From the NCBI RefSeq assembly GCF_029910235.1, contig NZ_CP112874.1, positions 3,791,001 through 3,855,000 of the forward strand: 64,000 nucleotides of DNA, given 5' to 3'. Below are positions 45,014 through 48,991 of the stretch, one piece after another. The DNA is from Pseudanabaena galeata CCNP1313 (lineage in GTDB: Bacteria; Cyanobacteriota; Cyanobacteriia; Pseudanabaenales; Pseudanabaenaceae). Every line of letters starts with the position of its first letter. The stretch's first letter is position 1. The notes under the pieces were generated by a model, which worked only from the letters and a program-made list of their open reading frames with translations, was not told the origin of the DNA and did not search any database. Both the position numbers and the translations under genes were made by a program.

Positions 45014-46783
45014 ATGACTTCTTTCCCTGATTTCGCGGCGCATGGTTTTCAAGTTGTCAAAGAATTGGGGCATAACTTGGAGGGAGGCAGGTTTACTTAT
45101 CTAGCAAAACGCCTTTCTGATAATTGTGATGTTGTAGTCAAGCAATTTCAATTTTCTAAAAGTGCGGGGTGGGATGGATTTAGGTCGATCGAGCGTGAGA
45201 TCCAGAGTTTGCAGGGTTTAAATCATCGTGGTATTCCCAAGTATTTAGACAAGTTTGAGACAGATAACGGCTATTGCTTGGTTACAGAATATTTTCCTGC
45301 GGACACTTTGGCGGTGAGGCGGAGTTTTACGCCTGACCAAATTAAGCAAATTGCGGTGCAGATTTTAGAGATTTTGGTGTATCTGCAAGAGCGAATGCCG
45401 CCCGTCATTCACCGTGACGTTAAGCCTGAAAATATTTTGGTAGATAATAATCTCAATGTTTACTTAATTGATTTTGGTTTTGCGCGGGTGGGTAGTGGCA
45501 GTGTGGCGATGAGTAGCGCTAATGCGGGGACGTTTGGCTTCATGGCTCCCGAACAAATCCGCAATCTCAAGCTAACGAATGCGTCTGATCTCTATGGTTT
45601 GGGTTTGACGCTAATCTGTTTGATTGGGGCGATTCGTTCGACAGATATTGGCAATTACATCGATTTCAGCAATCAACTAGATCGCAGCAAAATCGATCCG
45701 AAGTTGAAGGGATGCAGTTTAACCTTTGTGAAGTGGTTAGATCAAATGGTCGCGCCCGATCCAAGTAAGCGGTTTGCTGATGCTAAGACTGCATTAGAGA
45801 CGTTGAAACCTTTGTATGTAGTGCGTGTGCCTGAAGTGCAGCTTTTTAAGGATAGCGAAGCGATCGATCCGAGTAGAACTCCATTCAAGTTTAAGGCAAA
45901 GAAATTGGGTGAAAAGATGAGGCAAATGATTACGCTCAAAAATTCTATTCCCGAAACTGTTTTAGAAGGTTATTGGGAAGTCGCCCCACATCCCAACGAT
46001 CCGCCGCACACGCCAGATAGTCATGTTTGGATTTCATTTAACAAACAAAAAGTTAAAGGGAACGATATCAACTGTGAAATAACTGTAGATACCAGCAAAC
46101 TGCGTGCAGGGCTTACAGGTTCGCGGCAGCTAGTATTCCATTCCAATACAAACCAAGGTCAAATCAATTTACCTCTAGAAATTGAAACAGCTAACCCCTT
46201 GCCTAAGATACCTCTGTCTCTATATTTTGGGGAGGTTTTATGTTTTGGTTGTGTTCTTGCAAGTGGCGTTATAGCTATTTGGGCTGAGGCAGAGGCTGGG
46301 TCTGTGGGTATGGCTTTGTCTGGGGCTGTGGCTTTGGCTGTTGTAGCTATAGCTGCGACTAGGGCTGTGGCTGTGGGCATATGTTTAGAAGTGGTTGTGG
46401 TTGTGGCTATGGCTTGGACTGGTGCTTGGGCTGCTGCTTGGGCTGGTGCTGTGGTTTGGACTGCGGCTTGGGTTTGGGCTTGGGTTTGGGCTGGAGGTAA
46501 GCTTGATGAAAAATACAAGTCTTTAACCGCAGCCCAAAATCCCTCATTTTGGATGCTCTTCTGGAGTCGTTATGTATTGGCTCTGCTCTGTGGCTGTGGG
46601 CTTGGAATCAATATTTTTGGTATGGGTTTAACAAAGGGATTTTTCATTCCTGTGACAATGATTCCTATCGTTACTATAGCCAGTGGTGCGGGCTTGGTTT
46701 ACTTAACTATCCTGCCGATGTTTCAGCGTCAGTCTCAATTAGCCACTTACCGCAAAAAAGAACAGCACTTGATTAACCCATGA
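45014..46783 (+). CDS. Membrane Ser/Thr protein kinase with Trp/Ala/Val-rich segment
   Basis: In this 589-residue protein the kinase domain (residues 10-265) keeps the ATP Lys (DVVVKQF), HRDVKPENILVDNN, LIDFGFARVG and the APEQIRN loop, so it is likely active. A middle region of about 150 residues (EGYWEVAPHPNDPPHTPD, VWISFNKQKVKGNDIN) looks like a small beta domain. From residue 400 come hydrophobic helices, including an extreme stretch of Trp, Ala and Val (AWTGAWAAAWAGAVVWTAAW) encoded by GGCTGTGGCT-type DNA. The C-terminal helices (RYVLALLCGCGLGINIFGMG) complete the membrane part. Confidence 0.85.
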   Translation: MTSFPDFAAHGFQVVKELGHNLEGGRFTYLAKRLSDNCDVVVKQFQFSKSAGWDGFRSIEREIQSLQGLNHRGIPKYLDKFETDNGYCLVTEYFPADTLAVRRSFTPDQIKQIAVQILEILVYLQERMPPVIHRDVKPENILVDNNLNVYLIDFGFARVGSGSVAMSSANAGTFGFMAPEQIRNLKLTNASDLYGLGLTLICLIGAIRSTDIGNYIDFSNQLDRSKIDPKLKGCSLTFVKWLDQMVAPDPSKRFADAKTALETLKPLYVVRVPEVQLFKDSEAIDPSRTPFKFKAKKLGEKMRQMITLKNSIPETVLEGYWEVAPHPNDPPHTPDSHVWISFNKQKVKGNDINCEITVDTSKLRAGLTGSRQLVFHSNTNQGQINLPLEIETANPLPKIPLSLYFGEVLCFGCVLASGVIAIWAEAEAGSVGMALSGAVALAVVAIAATRAVAVGICLEVVVVVAMAWTGAWAAAWAGAVVWTAAWVWAWVWAGGKLDEKYKSLTAAQNPSFWMLFWSRYVLALLCGCGLGINIFGMGLTKGFFIPVTMIPIVTIASGAGLVYLTILPMFQRQSQLATYRKKEQHLINP

Positions 46784-46793
46784 ACCTAAAATT

Positions 46794-47454
46794 ATGGAAG
46801 ACATTCTTCAACAAATTAGAGAATCAGCAACCACCTCTTCTCCCCCCTTCACAAGGGGGGCTGGGGGGGATCACCCTCTAAACCACAAGCCCCATTTCCC
46901 CAACTACAAAGTACACACAAAACTCCCTGTCTACGTTTCAAGGTTTAGATCCCCCTCAATCCCCCTTGCAAAGGGGGAAGAAGAGAAAGAACTTAATTCT
47001 CTAATCATGGAAGACATTCTTCAACAAATTAGAGAATCAGCAACCACCTCTTCTCCCCCCTTCACAAGGGGGGCTGGGGGGGATCACCCCTTAAACCACA
47101 AACTCCATTTCCCAAACCACAGAGTACACACAAAACTCCCTGACTACGTTTCAAAGTTTAGATCCCCCTCAATCCCCCTTGCAAAGGGGGAAGAAGAGCA
47201 AGAACTTAATTCTCTAATCATGGAAGACATTCTTCAACAAATTAGAGAATCAGCAACCACCTCTTCTCCCCCCTTCACAAGGGGGGCTGGGGGGGATCAC
47301 CCTCTAAACCACAAGCCCCATTTCCCCAACTACAGAGTACACACAAAACTCCCTGTCTACGTTTCAAGGTTTAGATCCCCCTCAATCCCCCTTAGAAAGG
47401 GGGAAGAAGAGCAAGAATCTAATTCTTCCACCTTAGAAGAGAAAAAATTTAATT
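46794..47454 (+). repeat. Three 213-bp in-frame tandem units
   Basis: Units begin at 46794, 47007 and 47220 (213 bp = 71 codons each), and all start ATGGAAGACATTCTTCAACA. Each contains a CTCCCCCCTTCACAAGG left-type inverted repeat, about 80 bp of spacer and a GATCCCCCTCAATCCCCC right-type repeat. As 213 is a multiple of three, the array reads as one long frame ending at 47492, with peptide repeats MEDILQQIRESATTSSPPFT and SPSIPLAKGEEE. It is probably not a real protein. The start tag matches the 5' end of the DUF4258 gene at 47907. Confidence 0.85.
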
Positions 47455-47880
47455 CTCCCCCCTTCACAAGGGGGGCTGGGGGGGATCAATGACACTTAAA
47501 ACCAGCAACCTCCATCTCCCCTATAACCCTGATCTCACCACCAGAGCCAAAGAACTGCGTCAAAACATGACACCCGCAGAAAGAAAACTTTGGCACAAAT
47601 ATTTAAAAAACTTCCGATTTAGAGTTCTGCGACAAAGACCTATTGACCATTTCATCGTTGACTTCTACTGTCCTAGCCTCAAACTAGTTATTGAAGTTGA
47701 CGGAGAAAGCCACTATACCGATGAGGGGACAGCCTATGATCAAGAAAGAACACAACGATTAGAAGGCTACGAGATTAAGGTTATTCGGTTTACTAATCGA
47801 CAGGTGTTAGAAGACTTTGAGAGGGTGTGTGAAGAGATAGAGAGGATGATCCCCCCCAGCCCCCCTTGAGAAGGAGGGAG
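47455..47880 (+). mobile_element. DUF559 cassette between 33-bp inverted repeats
   Basis: The left end (47455-47487, CTCCCCCCTTCACAAGGGGG then GCTGGGGGGGATC) and the right end (47848-47880, GATCCCCCCCAGCCCCCCTT then GAGAAGGAGGGAG) are inverted copies. Between them lies a single gene whose ATG (47489) is one base after the left end and whose stop lies inside the right end. This tight packaging looks like a transposition unit of about 426 bp. The units upstream look like shortened versions. Confidence 0.6.
47489..47869 (+). CDS. DUF559 endonuclease-like protein
   Basis: This 126-residue protein has LTTRAKELRQNMTPAERKLW, then FRFRVLRQRPIDHFIVDFYC and LKLVIEVDGESHYTDEGTAY, the DUF559 (Vsr/restriction-endonuclease-like fold) pattern. 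The Asp in 'FIVDFY' and the Glu/Asp in 'VIEVDG' are likely metal ligands. The family is multi-copy in cyanobacteria. Here the gene starts and stops within flanking inverted repeats, so it is a candidate to move them. The C-terminal residues (IPPSPP) come from the right repeat. Confidence 0.85.
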   Translation: MTLKTSNLHLPYNPDLTTRAKELRQNMTPAERKLWHKYLKNFRFRVLRQRPIDHFIVDFYCPSLKLVIEVDGESHYTDEGTAYDQERTQRLEGYEIKVIRFTNRQVLEDFERVCEEIERMIPPSPP

Positions 47881-47906
47881 AAGAGTTAGCCAGAGAGCCT
47901 GAAATT

Positions 47907-48221
47907 ATGGAAGACATTCTTCAACAAGTTAGAGAAGCGGCAGAAAAGCAAATATTATTTCTTCCACACGCTCTCCGTCAAATGTCTCGACTAGATCGAA
48001 TGATTACTACTCAAGAAGTTAGAGAGACTGTCATGACAGGAGAATTGATAGAAGACTATTCCGAAGATGCGAGAGGTCATAGTTGCTTACTGTTCAAATC
48101 AGTAGAAACAAATCGAATAATTCATGTCGTTTGCGCTCCTAAGCCAGAATACCTTGCAATTATTACGGCTTACATACCCAGTAGCAGTCAATGGACAAAC
48201 AATTTTAGAGAGAGGTTATAA
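47907..48221 (+). CDS. DUF4258 putative toxin
   Basis: In this 104-residue protein the pattern ILFLPHALRQMSRLDRMITT, then VRETVMTGELIEDYSEDARG and IIHVVCAPKPEYLAIITAYI, fits DUF4258, a RelE-like RNase family. It precedes, by 2 bp, a YgiT-type zinc-finger protein, the expected antitoxin. The start is preceded by CCTGAAATTATGGAAG, which is duplicated at 46778-46799 (CCTAAAATTATGGAAG). Its first 13 codons match the start of each 213-bp unit upstream. Confidence 0.8.
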   Translation: MEDILQQVREAAEKQILFLPHALRQMSRLDRMITTQEVRETVMTGELIEDYSEDARGHSCLLFKSVETNRIIHVVCAPKPEYLAIITAYIPSSSQWTNNFRERL

Positions 48222-48223
48222 CA

Positions 48224-48448
48224 ATGGAATGTATTTACTGCAAAGGTCACATGGAGAAAAAGACCGCACCATTTAGCATCCAGAAAAATGGTTACTACTT
48301 ACATTGGGATGCAATTCCTGCCTTTGTTTGCGATCAGTGCGGCGAAGTCTATTTTGCTGAACATGAAGTTGATGTAATTCAATCAGCAATTTCAGAATTA
48401 GATCGCAAAAATGCTGAATTTTATACACCTGAAAAGGAAACTGCGTAA
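48224..48448 (+). CDS. YgiT-type zinc-finger antitoxin
   Basis: In this 74-residue protein the two CxxC pairs are visible: MECIYCKGHMEKKTAPFSI and FVCDQCGEVYFAEHEVDVIQ. It has the N-terminal MqsA/YgiT zinc ribbon but no C-terminal helix-turn-helix, as in many DUF4258-associated partners. It is predicted to neutralise the DUF4258 protein. Confidence 0.85.
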   Translation: MECIYCKGHMEKKTAPFSIQKNGYYLHWDAIPAFVCDQCGEVYFAEHEVDVIQSAISELDRKNAEFYTPEKETA

Positions 48449-48493: not shown

Positions 48494-48991
48494 GAATTAG
48501 GCTTAATTTGGTGTTTTGAACGAGTCTTTGTCCGCACTCCATCTGGACGTAAACGCTTCAATGTCTTAGCTGCTCTCAATACTGTTACCCATGAAGTGAT
48601 TACCGTCACCAATGACTATTATATCACGGGTACTCAAGTCTGTGAGTTGTTGTACCAATTAGCGGCTTTAGGCTTGACGATTCCTATCACCTTAGTCTTA
48701 GACAATGCTCGTTATCAAAAGTATCACATCATTACCGCATTAGCGGCAACCTTAAATATCGAATTACTTTACTTACCGTCCTACTCTCCTAATTTGAATT
48801 TGATTGAGCGTCTCTGGAAATTCGTGAAGAAAAAATGTTTGTTTGCTAAATACTACTCTGATTTTTCGGCGTTTTGTGCTGCCATTTCCGACTGTTTAGC
48901 TCAACCTCACATTCAGTATAAAGACGAACTTGATTCTCTTCTCACTCTCAAGTTTCAATCATTCAAAAATACTCATATTGTTCCCGTTTAA
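48494..48991 (+). pseudogene. IS630-family transposase, 5'-truncated
   Basis: An in-frame stop (TAA at 48491) lies just before the fragment. The readable part begins ELGLIWCFERVFVRTPSGRK, has ITLVLDNARYQKYHIITALA (second catalytic Asp) and ends with YLPSYSPNLNLIERLWKFVK, the DDE motif (S-P-N-L-N-x-I-E). The first catalytic Asp and the DNA-binding N-terminus are missing. A GTG at 48596 could serve as start of a shorter product, but this is unlikely. Confidence 0.85.

Follow-up and report, generated by a model that had tools for sequence, protein, structure and literature searches.

The window, a stretch of 64,000 nt from Pseudanabaena galeata CCNP1313 (contig NZ_CP112874.1), contains a DUF559 gene framed by inverted arms of 36 nt that are 94% complementary and stand at a spacing of 358 nt. 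The original prediction had read inverted repeats at this place, and it had placed the ATG one base inside the left end and the stop within the right end; both are seen: the ATG (47489) follows the left GATC end by one base, and the right arm contains the stop codon (47867-47869). Eight copies of the repeat were detected at 46842-47878, compared with none in shuffled sequence. Upstream of the gene lie tandem 213-bp units (Table 1), each consisting of a 45-nt target segment, which includes a copy of the 5' end of the DUF4258 gene further downstream, and a 168-bp element with two inverted palindromes, in which the hairpins face outward and the GATC inward, with a 75-nt core. In the left copy of the target, the 45-nt core at 46785-46829 is the clear part. 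The pair of repeats adjoining the gene on its left is predicted to fold into two hairpins with paired tails (z = -3.05). The 75-nt core was rejected as a deletion derivative of DUF559 since its similarity did not rise above that of shuffled sequences (49 of 500 were as good). The 232-aa open frame at 46794-47492, which crosses all three tandem units as well as the left repeat, seems to be a by-product of the repeats and not a gene.

Table 1. Positions of the DUF559 insertion, its repeats and its borders in the window.
Feature	Position	Strand	Basis
Left copy of target segment (intergenic end and first 12 codons of DUF4258)	46776-46829		Empty-site alignment with two relatives, 54-bp overlap
Three tandem 213-bp units	46785-47423		Repeat search of window
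Palindromic repeat CCCCCCTTCACAAGGGGGGCTGGGGGGGATC	46842-46872	+	Motif scan
Palindromic repeat, ATTGA variant	46948-46978	-	Motif scan
Palindromic repeat	47055-47085	+	Motif scan
Palindromic repeat	47161-47191	-	Motif scan
Palindromic repeat	47268-47298	+	Motif scan
Left REPIN-like pair adjoining DUF559	47374-47487		Repeats 47374-47404 (-) and 47457-47487 (+), GATC tails outward
Left inverted-repeat arm of DUF559 unit	47453-47488	+	Repeat search
DUF559 gene, 126 aa, Vsr-like/EDxHD nuclease	47489-47869	+	Pfam PF04480 (E=1.2e-29), alignments, model
Right inverted-repeat arm, holds DUF559 stop codon	47847-47882	-	Repeat search
Right copy of target segment	47888-47941		Empty-site alignment
DUF4258 gene	47907-48221	+	PF14076; orthologues in relatives

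Comparison with relatives showed that the DUF559 block is an insertion whose empty site they have kept. In one of them (G003, locus L221) the DUF4258 gene directly follows the same kinase gene, and alignment of the window with this locus and with that of a second relative (G007, L218) placed the junctions at 46829 on the left and 47888 on the right, with a target segment of 54 bp in duplicate, of which 45 bp are clear. The insert (about 46830-47887) thus combines the DUF559 unit with the three tandem units of 213 bp and is accompanied by a target duplication of 45-54 bp. It has terminal inverted repeats, and the ends of the element match the insertion junctions within a few bases. The DUF4258 gene downstream is intact because its 5' end was duplicated. 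The insertion that had been proposed as a candidate is therefore borne out by the empty sites, but the mobile unit had been drawn too small, at 47455-47880, with the tandem units on the left missed. A third relative (G015, L238) carries one tandem unit plus the DUF559 unit at the same site, compared with three plus one in the window. Replication slippage could be an alternative source of the long target duplication and of the tandem units. A second DUF559 gene of the window genome (L069, G000:C1:2380000-2392000) has four tandem units upstream, in parallel to the array in the window; there each unit combines some 30 nt from the beginning of that gene with an inverted palindrome pair, and the same array is found in L002.

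The association between DUF559 genes and flanking repeats was examined by comparing the upstream flank of each gene with its downstream flank in reverse complement, with no repeat sequence presupposed. Using 200-nt flanks, 38 of 80 DUF559 loci from several phyla reached a score of at least 18, compared with 7 of 1200 intervals taken as controls from the contigs of these loci. The original prediction had staked itself on most DUF559 genes in related genomes having such repeats: with 300-nt flanks, inverted palindromes flanked 46 of the 59 DUF559 genes of cyanobacterial genomes and none of 672 controls, and in a wider set 43 of 83 genes passed, compared with 12 of 1245 controls. When whole ORFs served as controls, the figures were 30/76 and 7/585, and the seven passing ORFs include two further DUF559 genes, one RAYT and one four-helix-bundle gene. 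Quantified over matched intervals of the same contigs, the enrichment is roughly 50-fold or more. About one fifth of the cyanobacterial DUF559 genes and one half of those in the wider set had no flanking inverted repeat at the threshold used. True Vsr genes, taken as a control of the same fold, occurred in 2 of 116 genomes of the class and had no flanking repeats, a number too small to inform further. These results indicate that the association of DUF559 with flanking inverted repeats is general.

In the window genome (G000) we counted 253 copies of the repeat at up to three mismatches, compared with none for a reversed-pattern control. Many of these copies are arranged as in REPINs, in pairs that span about 75 bp and have their GATC ends on the outside, and AATT-type pairs occur as well, at recurring spacings. 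Solo repeats far outnumber DUF559 genes, so that repeats alone are no marker of DUF559; such an excess is expected of non-autonomous derivatives. By inspection, the cyanobacterial GATC type and the types from Clostridia have a common layout, consisting of a C-run/G-run hairpin, a spacer or second hairpin, and a second G-run, and the tails are of GATC, TGAGGGT or CTAGGGGGGC type, with the GTAG/CGTC tag of REPs absent. One GATC-type repeat (G037:C23:827278-827708) has one half of an IVP gene on either side and apparently splits it.

We then compared the type of repeat with the phylogeny of the gene. On a tree of 57 DUF559 domains (about 105 columns, with orthologous insertions mostly represented by one row each and some near-copies left in), the six repeat types required five changes, which is the minimum, compared with a mean of 25.2 for shuffled labels, none of 200 shuffles being as low; for a few rows from distant bacteria, the repeat type was assigned by a fuzzy motif. 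The repeat that the original prediction expected at DUF559 genes, CTCCCCCC/GATC, is confined to one clade, whereas other clades carry other palindromes, so that the inverted repeats proved general and that particular sequence did not. Two or three clades, each with its own repeat, coexist in single genomes (G000, G005, G012, G019, G022 and G037), and in one genome two A-clade copies with 83% identity occupy unrelated loci. Among 23 genomes of the genus, many of them draft assemblies and compared with statistics that ignore kinship, the nine with an A-clade DUF559 had a median of 70 A-type repeats, compared with 17.5 in the 14 without (p=0.0005), and D-type repeats had a median of 34 with and 6 without a D-clade gene (p=0.005). 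The two cross-comparisons, in which the clade was set against the repeat of the other type, were not significant (p=0.21 and 0.93). Two DUF559-free genomes of the genus contain 21-27 A-type repeats, and G005, G008 and G021 contain 29-46 D-type repeats with no D-clade gene detected. Such leftover repeats may be relics, but they are also what an unrelated mobiliser would give.

Apart from DUF559 and a weak match to a restriction-endonuclease family, Pfam recognised nothing in the window protein, and no known transposase family. Residues E69, D71, H75 and D84 are invariant in DUF559 alignments. Profile searches retrieved two PDB entries, 3hrl (E=4.5e-31), which is a DUF559-like protein, and, at E=4e-4, the homing endonuclease I-Bth0305I (3r3p); Foldseek matched the predicted model (pLDDT 89) to the same two structures and then, more weakly, to Vsr (1cw0, Foldseek probability 0.98). 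DUF559 thus resembles the EDxHD homing endonuclease I-Bth0305I by sequence and by fold. Pairwise dN/dS values, mostly 0.05-0.22 with one close pair at 0.58, show that the gene is under purifying selection. A DUF559 gene of Thermosynechococcus has already been named an EDxHD homing endonuclease, in the intein section of a paper (PMC9403480) in which a search for the term 'palindrom' found nothing. In the available portion of the open-licence literature we found no earlier report linking DUF559 to repeats, and one may exist elsewhere.

All in all, these data suggest an unrecognised kind of selfish DNA element with a homing-type enzyme as partner. We consider it fairly probable that DUF559 encodes the enzyme of a selfish element with REPIN-like palindromic ends, and that this enzyme works like RAYT but is unrelated to it. 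We infer a putative recognition of the palindrome by the nuclease and, like the original prediction, a putative movement driven by it. The ends of such an element would be formed by a C-run/G-run hairpin and a second G-run tail, often paired on each side of the gene, and each DUF559 clade would recognise its own palindrome family, with the gene-less palindromes, present in tens to hundreds of copies, acting as non-autonomous members in the way REPINs do for RAYT transposases. Movement would likely be homing-like: the Vsr/EDxHD-type nuclease would nick or cut at or near the cognate palindrome or the target, and host repair would then copy in the element. Nicks staggered by about 50 bp could yield the target duplication of 45-54 bp and an array of tandem target-plus-element units, and repeated rounds or slippage could extend the array. 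On the wider proposal, that EDxHD/Vsr-like DUF559 nucleases constitute a widespread class of bacterial mobile elements that mobilise themselves and their cognate REPIN-like palindromes with no transposase, many copies sitting in frame in restriction-modification genes, our judgement is evenly balanced.

A close parallel is the REPIN-RAYT system (REPtrons; Bertels and Rainey 2011, PMC3116915; Di Nocera et al. 2013, PMC3733652), in which palindromes likewise flank a small gene, inverted pairs of the same palindrome are dispersed in the genome, the repeat family matches the clade of the gene and repeats are sometimes found inside genes. In contrast, DUF559 (PF04480) is a Vsr-like nuclease unrelated to the HUH/Y1 tyrosine transposase, the GTAG tag known from RAYT repeats is absent from its palindromes, and its copies occupy unrelated loci, some of them in frame in restriction-modification genes. 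It could nevertheless be that another enzyme, for example a RAYT or an IS200-type transposase, mobilises the palindromes and that DUF559 is a passenger caught between repeats, since RAYTs are present in these genomes, one RAYT-like ORF at a Clostridia locus is itself flanked by an inverted repeat, and repeats persist where DUF559 is missing. However, when 20 Y1_Tnp genes from the genus and one other genome were examined, about half were flanked by other repeat families, often direct repeats, and the GATC-type repeat was found in none of the 20 regions; nor is it present near any of the six Y1_Tnp genes of the window genome. The RAYTs examined in the genus are accompanied by different repeats or by no repeats, on which ground they were rejected as mobilisers of the DUF559 palindromes. 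Neither a one-to-one pairing of clade and repeat, nor a dependence of copy number on the gene, nor the same association across phyla would be expected if DUF559 were a passenger. We therefore regard this explanation as rather unlikely. Because the RAYTs carry other repeats, RAYT-REPIN and DUF559-palindrome systems coexist side by side in the genus, and the RAYT-REP analogy drawn in the original prediction fits both this and the way in which repeat type follows clade and genome copy number. Individual RAYT-type Y1_Tnp genes (L173, L175, L176, L178, L182, L183, L184 and others) have their own repeat families, GGGTAGAGCATTTGCG, GTAGGGTGTGTTAGCG and AGATCTCCGACTT.

In several clades, DUF559 and its repeats are located in frame within larger genes, where the repeats are read as Pro/Gly-rich stretches. 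Since stop codons are mostly absent from the repeats, large genes can accommodate the element in frame. All cyanobacterial hosts that Pfam could name are restriction-modification genes (HsdR, MmeI-type, Eco57I-type, type ISP and DUF1156). Filled and empty alleles of one gene both occur: the MmeI-type host is filled in six species and has six empty homologues with 79-93% identical protein, including one in the window genome itself, and the HsdR host is filled in G012 and empty in G001, at 94% DNA identity. The HsdR insert is in frame, adds 579 bp net and replaces about 13 bp of host sequence, with no clear target duplication. Such copies could be taken for functional domains of restriction-modification proteins and not selfish DNA, DUF559 being a repair or restriction nuclease domain and the palindromes linkers or regulatory hairpins. 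The restriction-modification nature of every nameable large host in cyanobacteria and the purifying selection on DUF559 agree with this, as does Caulobacter VsrA, which acts in methylation-linked DNA damage (PMC12907096); by analogy, some members of the DUF559 family may simply be Vsr-like enzymes of DNA repair. Yet the same kinds of repeat accompany free-standing DUF559 copies, close relatives have host genes free of the insert, and hundreds of solo repeats are dispersed in the genome, which makes a pure domain function distinctly improbable. Finally, that G/C-run palindromes pile up in dispensable DNA and that DUF559 is there by chance is hardly credible: the abundance of repeats in the window genome speaks for it, but the enrichment over matched intervals contradicts it, and orthologous inserts and empty sites show gene and repeats arriving as one block. 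Outside cyanobacteria, an exception among the hosts is a DUF559 frame (L116:3963-5549) that runs with no stop into a peptidase M50 gene through repeat-like DNA; another frame (L112:3786-4781) runs in the same way into RNase HI-like sequence.

The selfish element with a DUF559 nuclease that we favour shares features with further systems. Like EDxHD homing endonucleases (I-Bth0305I, PDB 3r3p), DUF559 has the EDxHD residues and detectable similarity in sequence and fold; unlike them, it lies outside introns and inteins, and its flanking palindromes also exist alone in many copies. According to a review (PMC3943268), I-Bth0305I dimerises on a target of nearly 60 bp, which is suggestively close to the length of a palindrome pair. 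The Vsr mismatch endonuclease has the same fold, but its genes have no flanking repeats. An insertion sequence with terminal inverted repeats would also carry these at its junctions, whereas the window element has, in place of a short target-site duplication of fixed length, one of 45-54 bp that is repeated in tandem. In-frame insertion into protein genes is also known from other palindromes, such as the Rickettsia palindromic elements; the DUF559 palindromes differ from these in bracketing a nuclease gene. The small dispersed repeats and MITEs of cyanobacteria are short, mobile-looking repeats with no enzyme of their own, whereas here a partner gene is proposed. Many families of palindromic repeats have no known mobiliser, among them the CGTC REPs, which are stated to have no dedicated transposase (PMC3733652). 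If our interpretation is true, a second enzyme family that pairs with repeats of this kind in several phyla would offer a testable answer as to their mobiliser and a likely role for DUF559, a common family of 'unknown function', and it would raise the question of why these elements occupy restriction-modification genes.

Two further observations concern the neighbourhood of the insertion and another gene family. At 47907-48448 of the window, the DUF4258 gene is followed by a gene with a weak match to the MqsA antitoxin, possibly forming a toxin-antitoxin pair; the MqsA-like region is common to G015 and G004. By inspection, the ORF at 48596-48991 resembles the C-terminal part of an IS630-type transposase. 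Genes for PF05635 four-helix-bundle/23S rRNA IVP proteins (L260-L289, from relatives and the window genome) have inverted arrays of short repeats at their flanks, with many heptamers (AATTACG, GGTAATT, TAGCGAT and others) like the classic cyanobacterial STRRs, and these arrays often differ between genes. In this set, which includes three Vsr loci (0/3 scored), 19 of 29 loci reached 18, and the IVP genes with their arrays are a possible third pairing of gene and repeat.
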